Source: Cohnella sp. OV330
GTDB taxonomy: Bacteria > Bacillota > Bacilli > Paenibacillales > Paenibacillaceae
Length of the DNA: 64,000 bases
Reading direction: 5' to 3'
Assembly (NCBI RefSeq): GCF_900112065.1
Contig: NZ_FOKE01000004.1
Location: 434,001 to 498,000 of the forward strand
Shown here: positions 14,427 to 47,883 of the stretch, piece by piece
How positions within the stretch are numbered: the first letter of the stretch is position 1
Layout: the number at the start of each line of letters is the position of its first letter
Translations under genes and position numbers: made by a program
The notes under the pieces: generated by a model
The model's input: only the letters and a program-made list of their open reading frames with translations
What the model was told of the DNA's origin: nothing
The model's database searches: none

Positions 14427-16463
<2,037 letters not shown>

Positions 16464-37974: not shown

Positions 37975-38030
37975 AAACGCGGCATCCCGCCGAGCAGGCG
38001 CTTACGAGCCTGAGACACGGGATACCGCGT
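37971..38030 (-). terminator. Terminator of the eda-kdgK transcript
   Basis: On the minus strand ACGCGGTATCCCG pairs with CGGGATGCCGCGT around a loop holding a second small stem, followed by TTTTATT. Since it faces leftwards, the kdgK transcript would run through the 38.06-38.24 repeats before ending here. Confidence 0.72.
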
Positions 38031-38060
38031 ATATGAATACGAAGGCGATTCTGTTTTGGC

Positions 38061-38244
38061 GAAATAGCGATGTCGCGTATCGTTATTCCGTGCCGCGAGC
38101 CACTTTTCGGGAATTAACGATGTCGCGTATCGTTATTCCATGCCATGAGCCACGTTTCGGGATAATAGCGATGTCAGATGTCGTTATTTCGATCCACGAT
38201 CCGCTTTTCGGGCAAATAGCGATGTCCCGCATCGCTATTGCAGA
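38061..38244. repeat. Four-unit palindromic repeat array, period ~50-51 bp
   Basis: Units begin at 38061, 38111, 38161 and 38212 (the last partial). Each contains an inverted repeat with arms like AATAGCGAT and ATCGCTATT around 6-7 bases. Unit 4 is a perfect 9-bp palindrome; unit 1 has one G-T pair; unit 2 has a compensating A-T pair; unit 3 has wobble pairs. The linkers share GAGCCAC and TTTCGGG. The array fills the gap between kdgK and its terminator. An 85-codon open frame crosses it, but it has no ribosome site. Confidence 0.85.
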
Positions 38245-38271
38245 CGCAACGCGAAGCGTCCGCGCGCCTTT

Positions 38272-45766: not shown

Positions 45767-46594
45767 ATGACCAACTCTCTTCAATCCTGCACCGTGCTGC
45801 GGGGCGGCGTCCGCATGCCATGGCTGGGACTCGGCGTTTGGAAAATGGACAACGACGCGCAGGTCGTCTCCGCCGTGCGTGCCGCGCTCGACGCCGGTTA
45901 CCGGAGCATCGATACGGCCGCGATCTACAGAAACGAAGCGGGCGTCGGTCAGGCGATTCGCGAAGGCGGCGTCCCGCGTTCGGAGTTGTTCGTCACGACG
46001 AAGATTTGGAACGAGGATCAGGGCTACGACAAGACGCTGGCAGCGTATGATGCTTCGCTTGAACGCCTTGGTCTCGACCATGTCGATCTGCTGCTCATTC
46101 ACTGGCCGGGCACAGACAAGTTCGTCGATACTTGGCGAGCGTTCGAGAAGCTGTATGCGGACGGACGCGTGAGGGCCGTCGGCGTCAGCAACTTCAACAT
46201 CCGTCATCTGGAGGAGCTGAAGCGGCACAGCGATCTCGTCCCGATGGTTAATCAGGTCGAATACCATCCGCTGTTGTCCCAGCGCGAGCTCCGAAGCTAT
46301 TGCCAGGAAAACCGCATCCAGCTTGAGGCGTGGAGCCCGCTTATGCAGGGCAACCTCGATCACGAGGCGCTGCGTTCGATCGGCGCGAAGCACGGCAAAT
46401 CGCCCGCTCAGGTCGTGCTGCGCTGGGACATCCAGCATGGCGTCGTGACGATCCCGAAGTCTGTCACACCGGCCCGGATCGCCGAGAACGCGAACGTGTT
46501 CGACTTCGAACTGAGCGCGGACGAGATGGCGCTCATCGACGACCTGAACCGGGACCAACGGTTCGGCCCTGATCCGGAGAAGTTTCTGTTTTAA
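45767..46594 (+). CDS. Aldo/keto reductase
   Basis: A 275-residue NADPH-dependent reductase of the AKR5 type (YvgN or 2,5-diketogluconate reductase-like). The catalytic tetrad is visible: Asp in SIDTAAIYRNE with the adjacent Tyr, Lys in VTTKIWNED, and His in LLIHWPGTD. Cofactor-binding residues lie in the C-terminal VVTIPKSVTPARIAEN. The start follows GGAGGCA at about 10 bases. The substrate is unknown. Confidence 0.93.
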   Translation: MTNSLQSCTVLRGGVRMPWLGLGVWKMDNDAQVVSAVRAALDAGYRSIDTAAIYRNEAGVGQAIREGGVPRSELFVTTKIWNEDQGYDKTLAAYDASLERLGLDHVDLLLIHWPGTDKFVDTWRAFEKLYADGRVRAVGVSNFNIRHLEELKRHSDLVPMVNQVEYHPLLSQRELRSYCQENRIQLEAWSPLMQGNLDHEALRSIGAKHGKSPAQVVLRWDIQHGVVTIPKSVTPARIAENANVFDFELSADEMALIDDLNRDQRFGPDPEKFLF

Positions 46595-46601
46595 CAGAAA
46601 A

Positions 46602-46650
46602 GTAGCCTTCCCCGCAGACCCAATGGCCAGCGGAGGCGGCTTCTTTTTTT
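46602..46650 (+). terminator. Terminator after the aldo/keto reductase gene
   Basis: GCCTTCCCCGC pairs with GCGGAGGCGGC, with small mismatches, followed by TTCTTTTTTT. Confidence 0.8.
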
Positions 46651-46678: not shown

Positions 46679-47050
46679 GTTCCTAATTAGGAACAGCGCT
46701 GGCCCTTGCTGCGCCATGGGTGCTCGTTTGTTCCTAGTTAGGAACAACGCTTGCTTCTCTTGCGCCCAAGACTTCCGTTTGTTCCTCGTTAGGAACAACG
46801 AAATCCACTGTTGGGACATGTGCGCCCGATTGTTCCTAATTAGGAACAACGCCTGCTTCTCTTGCGCCCAAGGCAGCCGTTTGTTCCTAGTCAGAAACTA
46901 TGATGCCCTCCCGCTTGCAAACGGCGCCGGCTGCTCCTCTTCAGGAATAATTCTGCCCTCTCCCATGCAACAGGCACCCGGCTGTTCCTCGCCAGGAACA
47001 ATACCGTCCTTCCCCCTGCTAAAGGCCCCCGGCTATTCCTAATGCTATCC
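46679..47050. repeat. Eight-unit GTTCCTAATTAGGAAC palindrome array, 51-bp period
   Basis: Palindromes start at 46679, 46730, 46781, 46832, 46883, 46933, 46984 and ~47035, each 50-51 bases after the last. Units 1-4 are intact 16-mers (GTTCCTAATTAGGAAC or with GT/CG centres). Units 5-8 are progressively degraded. The 35-base spacers differ, except that those after units 2 and 4 are nearly the same, so a two-unit block was duplicated. The array lies after the reductase terminator and continues into a second repeat family. Both strands carry an open frame with 17-residue repeats but no ribosome site. Confidence 0.92.
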
Positions 47051-47240
47051 TGCAAAAGTGCATCATCCAAGGCTGGTATGGAGCGTTTTTGCGATCTATC
47101 GCGCAAAAGTGCACGGTAGCTCGTCTCTTTAAGCGGGACCCCGGCGTTTCGGGCAATAATGCTGCACTTTTGCGCGATAGCTCGCTAGGGACGTACGGGC
47201 GTCGCTCTCGATCTTGTACTTTTGAGCGATAGCCCCGTAT
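47051..47240. repeat. GCAAAAGTGCA repeats with an 18-bp inverted pair
   Basis: Direct copies at 47052 and 47103 are 51 bases apart. Inverted copies lie at 47163 and 47215, 52 apart. CTATCGCGCAAAAGTGCA (47096-47113) and its exact complement at 47163-47180 form a perfect 18-bp inverted repeat around 49 bases. The rest of the gap to the next gene at 47326 holds nothing recognised. Confidence 0.85.
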
Positions 47241-47325
47241 CTCAAGCAAACGATGTCGCAATTCCCGTCAGGAACCATTCGTCCCTTTCCTGCGCCGTCC
47301 GTTCGATCGGCAGCTTACAAACCGC

Positions 47326-47883
47326 TTACCTCGCGTAGCTGACGCCGGGCCAGATCCGATCCCACCGCTTGGCGTCGATTCTGCGCTCGAAGATCGCATG
47401 GAGCGCAGGATCCGCCGCGAATGCCGGCGTCGGCGCGACCCGCATGGCGACGGCATCGGCGAGCCCATGCGGCGCGCCGAGTATGGGCATGCCCGCGTCA
47501 TCCAACTTCAAGGCCAGCGCCGTGGCGGTCTCCGGGTAGTTCGCGACGGCGTCGAGCGATGACCGGTAAGGCGCACGGCCGTTAACGGCATGCATGCGCG
47601 CCTGGTTTTTGACAGACCACGGTACGTTCGGCATAAGCTTGCGAAGCTCCGCCTCATAGCGCTTTTCGGTCGCTTCGTCCGGATCGCCGGCGTCGAAGTA
47701 AATCACGTCGACATCCGGCAGGCGCGTGCGCGAAGCCGAGCCGGACAGGACGTCCCGCAGCTTGCTTCGCACGAACCCGGCGGCGATCCACCAGTCGGGC
47801 AGGTTCAGCGATCCGGCCGTCCGCAGCGCACACATCATCTCTTCGTCCGCTTGAACGAGCGACAGCAGCATGCGTTCGTCCAT
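47326..47883 (-). CDS. Nucleotidyltransferase family protein
   Basis: A 185-residue protein of the DUF925/NTP_transf_6 type. Visible features are the N-terminal WWIAAGFVRSKLRDVL and the metal-binding LPDVDVIYFDAGDPDEATE, with a C-terminal FAADPALHAIFERRIDAKRW. The substrate is unknown. It starts four bases after the pseudouridine synthase stop and is probably coupled to it. Its end faces the repeat locus, with no terminator hairpin seen. Confidence 0.8.
   Translation of the reverse strand: MDERMLLSLVQADEEMMCALRTAGSLNLPDWWIAAGFVRSKLRDVLSGSASRTRLPDVDVIYFDAGDPDEATEKRYEAELRKLMPNVPWSVKNQARMHAVNGRAPYRSSLDAVANYPETATALALKLDDAGMPILGAPHGLADAVAMRVAPTPAFAADPALHAIFERRIDAKRWDRIWPGVSYAR

Follow-up and report, generated by a model that had tools for sequence, protein, structure and literature searches.

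The window analysed here, a stretch of 64,000 nucleotides from Cohnella sp. OV330 (genome G000, 7.47 Mb in 29 contigs), carries a tandem array of palindromes between two convergent genes encoding an aldo/keto reductase and a nucleotidyltransferase (Table 1). The unit has the form GTTCCT-NNNN-AGGAAC, and seven units and a half unit were read from the window letters, with successive starts separated by 51, 51, 51, 51, 50, 51 and 51 bp, which confirmed the eight palindrome starts at 50- or 51-bp spacing reported in an earlier note on this DNA. That note regarded the first four units as intact and the rest as degrading. The fifth and sixth cores are indeed damaged, but the seventh is an exact copy of GTTCCTNNNNAGGAAC like the first four, and the eighth retains only its left half, being cut by a dispersed element. 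Exact GTTCCTNNNNAGGAAC occurs five times in the 64 kb, always inside the same 321 bp, against about 0.004 sites expected by hand arithmetic from base frequencies alone.

TRF independently detected the array at period 51 and a higher repeat at 102. The spacer following unit 2 equals that following unit 4 at 31/35 positions, in agreement with the duplication of a two-unit block proposed earlier. The remaining five spacer pairs among the first four share 18–21/35 positions. Most spacers thus differ, as had been noted, but they seem to be related to one another and to have diverged. A search of Rfam at gathering scores gave no match.

Table 1. Features in and around the palindrome array (positions in the window)
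Feature	Position	Strand	Remarks
Second 51-bp array, four units	38045..38239	.	other palindrome, AATAGCGAT...ATCGTTATT; also between convergent genes
Aldo/keto reductase gene	45767..46594	+	PF00248; convergent neighbour
Terminator-like hairpin with T-run, belonging to the aldo/keto reductase gene and preceding the array	46600..46650	+	fold -21.1 kcal/mol, z -1.80
51-bp palindrome array	46679..47042	.	units at 46679, 46730, 46781, 46832, 46883, 46933 and 46984, left half at 47035
Dispersed inverted-repeat element, ~194 bp	47043..47236	.	DNA search; boundaries approximate; cuts unit 8
Decayed core ATTCCCGTCAGGAAC past the dispersed element	47261..47275	.	sequence reading
Nucleotidyltransferase (NTP_transf_6) gene	47326..47883	-	PF06042; convergent neighbour

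The second array had been overlooked in the earlier note. The hairpin preceding the main array was given no score by a stricter terminator scan. The dispersed element contains CAAAAGTGC at 47053 and 47104 and reverse copies at 47164 and 47215, each pair being 51 bp apart, and its ends resemble GCTATC..GCAAAAGTGCA. By DNA search, the element recurs at eight other places in the genome and at more in G012, G036, G028 and G005.

Occurrence and turnover of the arrays

When the distance between two GTTCCT cores was left open to 36–66 bp, 8, 31, 40, 34 and 9 forward matches were found in G000, G012, G036, G005 and G028, respectively. The remaining 32 of the 37 genomes of the genus searched had between 0 and 3 apiece, and the backward pattern, run as a control, had between 0 and 2 in any one genome. 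Spacings were nearly all 50–52 bp among the matches listed and in the chains built from them. Random spacing, or occurrence at this locus only, had been named by the earlier note as the outcome that would speak against its reading, and this outcome was not obtained, five genomes having 8–40 matches each. In 20 chains sharing the core with different spacers, 121/145 spacings were exactly 51, under a procedure in which chains could form only at 47–55; one of the 20 comes from Heyndrickxia and contributes two of the 145 spacings. Among 18 oriented array consensuses, the core agrees and the spacer does so only loosely, and no match of the GTTCCT family was obtained at periods 67–97 in five genomes. 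Exact TTCCTNNTNAGGAA sites lie at four loci of G000, three of which are 51-bp arrays.

In a set of 84,980 species genomes, which may lack close relatives of the window, two exact cores 40–60 bp apart were found in 15 stretches, 12 of them from Cohnella. The Heyndrickxia match (L062:3278-3480) consists of three GTTCCTNNNNAGGAAC-like sites at 52-bp intervals. It precedes an open reading frame in an AT-rich region, looks like a set of operators and was not counted as part of the same system.

The orthologous locus in G012, G036 and G005 contains both the array and the dispersed element (shortened in G005), and that in G028 has three units and lacks the element. Conservation in close relatives, the other point of the earlier note, is therefore partial: the array locus is kept in four relatives, but in a fifth, G035, the two genes lie close together with no array. 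The second array numbers, by eye, about six copies in G035, four in G000, three in G028, where one stands away from the others, and two in G012. In G036 it has decayed and in G005 it cannot be recognised; its units appear concerted within species. In G036, a GATGTC hexamer microsatellite lies within the decayed array, in the region (L197) orthologous to window positions 37975–38271. The arrays hold their position between species but not their copy number, and since the first is absent from G035 and the second from G005, neither locus is essential.

Repeat length and helical phase

The preference for one repeat length extends over many unrelated sequences. Over 464 kb of G000 (the window and 20 pieces taken at even intervals, overlapping rows left unmerged), TRF rows with a period of at least 20 comprised 14 of period 51, four of 52 and one of 50, and the next commonest periods, 21 and 24, had five rows each. 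An intergenic self-match scan of this genome gave 22 hits, 16 of them with period 50–52, and 0/222 regions reached the threshold in the shuffled control. A larger scan of 2.06 Mb, to which G000 contributed 864 kb, G036 and G012 500 kb each, and G028 and G006 100 kb each, yielded 90 intergenic arrays, 48 of which have a period of 50, 51 or 52 (7, 34 and 7, respectively). Intergenic regions were defined with our own simple gene caller, so some will hold missed genes. The unit sequences vary widely, including GTTCCT, GTTTCTGGTTGAGAC, AATARCGAT, TAGCGGAA, ATCCCCTTCAC and CTGTA...TACAG, among others. Eight genomes from other families of the order served as a weak control, and their 284 kb contained four arrays free of open frames, with periods of 41, 42, 53 and 152.

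Off-phase arrays also exist at 47–48 and 90–91 bp; G036 has a family of 47 bp, and duplications of 90–91 bp occur several times. The 47-bp repeat family at L084:9683-10183 (G036:C5) has a sequence relative among the 51-bp families of G000 (ATCCCCTTCAC). On the same contig, the 51-bp array at L085:4938-5374 begins with GGCGCT...AGCGCC units and continues with AGTCCCATATAGAACT units in the same place, spacer and period being kept. Another 51-bp array (L034, ~15130–15180, G000:C22) ends in a long G run that is possibly an assembly artefact.

A palindrome family that is not confined to five helical turns was provided by TAGCGCAA, whose periods with the reverse arm were read over 38–99 bp in five genomes, with controls of 0 or 1. 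Among the matches listed, 65 arrays were distinguished by clustering by eye, G028 being the least complete: 55 at 71.7–74, four at 62, one at 82–83, two homologous ones at 92–94, one at 51, one at 75 and a single pair at 88. Four independent multi-unit arrays among the matches listed lie off the main mode, at 62, 62, 82.5 and 92.9, and at 10.4 bp their phase matches that of the main mode (mean cosine 0.99, p 1e-5); the fitted line has a slope of 10.28 bp per turn and an intercept of 0.36. The whole-turn classes were noticed first and tested afterwards. This strict test omits the 51-bp entry of G000:C16, which is another palindrome, the 62-bp pair at G000:C19:310064, which involves a damaged unit, and all single pairs. 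A 60-bp pair of G000:C22 that lacks a hairpin had been left out of an initial tally, whose seven-turn bin had taken in two 74-bp arrays. Restoring the single and damaged cases (60, 88 and a 53-bp unit) gave p 0.00085–0.00155, and restoring 74, 74 and 75 as well gave 0.00045–0.0007. A 60-bp unit of G005:C589 with a shortened hairpin loop and another 62 there stand outside all phase tests.

The TAGCGGAA family has periods of 51–53 in nearly all cases among the matches listed, with five hits at 61–91, and the GTTCCT and TAGCGGAA families taken alone display only the five-turn class among the matches listed. In the TAGCGGAA search, the backward pattern gave 33/42 in G000 and 27/22 in G028, exceeding the pattern itself, which gave 4/10 and 0/0. 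The backward control detected AAGGCGAT pairs 30–60 bp apart in G000 and G028, where these letters may belong to a further repeat. Mixed families gave R 0.44–0.55 for 10.0–10.5 bp (n 16), entries that are not independent; only the single-family phase test is usable.

The earlier note had left a choice between selection on spacing and growth by exact 51-bp slippage. The whole-turn periods support selection on spacing, and unit duplication also occurs, copy number differing between orthologues. Gap openings amount to 0.059 per substitution in the GTTCCT arrays (355/6009, counted over all unit pairs, which are not independent), and three alignments of ordinary intergenic DNA gave 3/127, 4/41 and 37/206, a comparison that lends no support to selection on spacing.

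Placement, stems and related repeat classes

Arrays of 49–53 bp are concentrated behind converging genes. They were found in 20/140 convergent, 23/700 co-directional and 2/180 divergent intergenic regions, corresponding to 0.36, 0.10 and 0.03 per kb. Per base pair, the convergent excess has a p of 6e-6 and the divergent depletion a p of 0.007. A function as terminators was rejected, as only 7/48 arrays hold a terminator-like site.

Inverted repeats are commoner in the units than in shuffles, in Cohnella and in the published Bacillus units alike. A significant stem (p≤0.05) is present in 14/48 Cohnella consensus units and in 15/27 of the published Bacillus units. The idea of two dyads per unit, the second being a spacer hairpin, was abandoned with a significant second stem in only 4/48 units. 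In 35 distinct hairpins of the AATARCGRT family, which are not independent because both strands were read, pair 8 is A-T in 30 and G-C in five and never mixed, though the pattern allowed mixing; at pair 5, 22 of them have G-T or A-C.

Subirana and Messeguer described tandem repeats of 52 (51–53) nt with constant length and variable sequence in Bacillus and Paenibacillus (PMC8161180). According to that paper, these repeats are non-coding, form several families per species, occur in roughly 30% of the Bacillus species surveyed, are abundant in Paenibacillus and differ in copy number between relatives; short signals and their reverse often lie in one unit, and a 20–21-nt class was noted to equal two turns. 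Their function was unexplained in the 2021 paper, where a nucleoid protein or a small RNA was proposed (PMC8161180), and the repeats of B. coagulans were reported with RNA-seq signs of transcription (PMC8161180; PMC8625621). The main text of the former makes no mention of Cohnella, palindrom-, hairpin, inverted repeat or terminator, and whole-turn periods for the class and the convergent-end bias appear, relative to that text, to be additions.

The window array belongs to this constant-length class. Its period of 51 with one 50, like the genus-wide distribution given above, accords with a unit length of 52 and occasionally 51 or 53; its seven full units with 6/7 spacings of 51 compare with a detection rule of at least four repeats, at least 60% of equal length. 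Several families of one length also coexist in a Cohnella genome, and conservation between species is partial with variable copy number. The present arrays differ from the published ones in their host genus, in being mostly 51, in the recurring exact palindrome core and in one family at 62/72–73/82–83/92–94.

REP/BIME elements are short intergenic palindromes, often behind genes, and are associated with a RAYT-type transposase. The window arrays resemble them in lying behind genes as short intergenic palindromes, but have a fixed spacing of about 51 bp and many unrelated cores, and where a GTAG or CGTC tag would stand, the window cores have AGCG, AACG or similar letters after them. The dRS3/NIME elements of Neisseria are short palindromic repeats separating other repeat sequence; the likeness is again in the palindromic repeats, and by description only, the Cohnella arrays are set apart as tandem with a constant period. 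With CRISPR, the arrays share a conserved repeat, a more variable spacer and even intervals. However, the window spacers are mutually related (18–31/35) rather than unique, the repeat is a 16-bp palindrome, and no cas gene is present among the five neighbouring genes.

Explanations considered

The favoured reading, to which about even credence is given, is phased binding of a putative double-stranded DNA-binding protein, probably an architectural one. The arrays would act as double-stranded DNA. Each palindrome core would be the putative target of a protein dimer, and the length of the repeat would set successive cores whole helical turns apart, five (51–52 bp) in most families and six to nine in one. 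Bound dimers would then lie on one face of the helix and may contact each other or wrap the DNA, and an array behind gene ends, densest between convergent genes, could serve as an architectural or insulating element. Copies would be gained and lost through ordinary tandem duplication and deletion, and in-phase arrays would be kept. A period that steps by one B-DNA turn is expected if the helix face of successive palindromes matters, i.e., if a double-stranded DNA-binding protein is involved. Against phased binding, 34/48 units have no significant stem, arrays exist off phase (47–48, 90–91, 75 and 88 bp), and 51 is slightly below five turns of 10.4; the GTTCCT and TAGCGGAA families keep to the five-turn class among the matches listed, and either window array can be lacking in a relative; moreover, in the AATARCGRT family one pair covaries, yet another is mismatched or G-T in 22/35 hairpins. 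Among the possibilities raised in the earlier note, a protein-binding array or nucleoid element fits best, and a folded RNA is not favoured by the strand comparison.

The main rival, which seems distinctly less probable, holds that the birth mechanism sets the length: replication, repair or a transposase-like process would make duplications of fixed or whole-turn length, and the arrays would be idle. In one variant, whole-turn duplications could arise because DNA that is looped or wrapped has to close in phase. That unrelated units share one length, that 11/29 arrays of at most two copies are already at 50–52 and that copy number turns over all agree with such an origin. On the other hand, the share at 50–52 rises with copy number, from 19/50 below to 29/40 above three copies, as expected if in-phase arrays are kept; two-copy repeats come in many other lengths, and the convergent-end bias is a further objection, none of the three being decisive. 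Ordinary minisatellites growing by slippage, with unconstrained length, would account for the duplicated two-unit block (31/35 spacer identity) and for units that appear, by eye, concerted within species. They are nevertheless the least probable of the explanations weighed, offering no reason for one length over many unit sequences, which the period histogram disfavours, or for the whole-turn classes.

Transcription of the arrays into RNA hairpins, as mRNA 3' ends, small RNAs or protein sponges, is improbable. Folding potential is high, the first 153 bases of the arrays having z < -2 in 23/48 on the plus strand and 18/48 on the minus strand against 4/48 controls, and the transcribed B. coagulans repeats point the same way. 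But no sense-strand preference was found in co-directional arrays, the sense strand being more stable in only 9/25 and the antisense in 16/25 (p 0.23), and a hairpin of the upstream mRNA was rejected on this ground. Terminator-like sites between stop codon and array occur at the usual rate (20/60, compared with 221/707 at other 3' ends and 13/300 in shuffles), and folding gives no reason for whole-turn periods. Slightly less probable again is a mobile or selfish REP-like palindrome that spreads core by core and accumulates behind genes. One core at many loci with different spacers, and a dispersed inverted-repeat element adjoining the array, would suit it; however, solo copies look few, as the TTCCTNNTNAGGAA loci of G000 illustrate, the spacing is fixed, and both window arrays hold their place across species.

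The whole-turn periods in one family and the convergent-end bias point to a DNA-bound protein, not to RNA. More broadly, and as a tentative proposal, the equal-length arrays of Bacillales might constitute a chromatin-like system of palindrome satellites with a whole-turn period, located behind genes, in which one face of the helix would be bound by putative dedicated proteins, insulating convergent transcription or holding supercoils. A whole-turn rule would explain how length can be fixed while the sequence is free.
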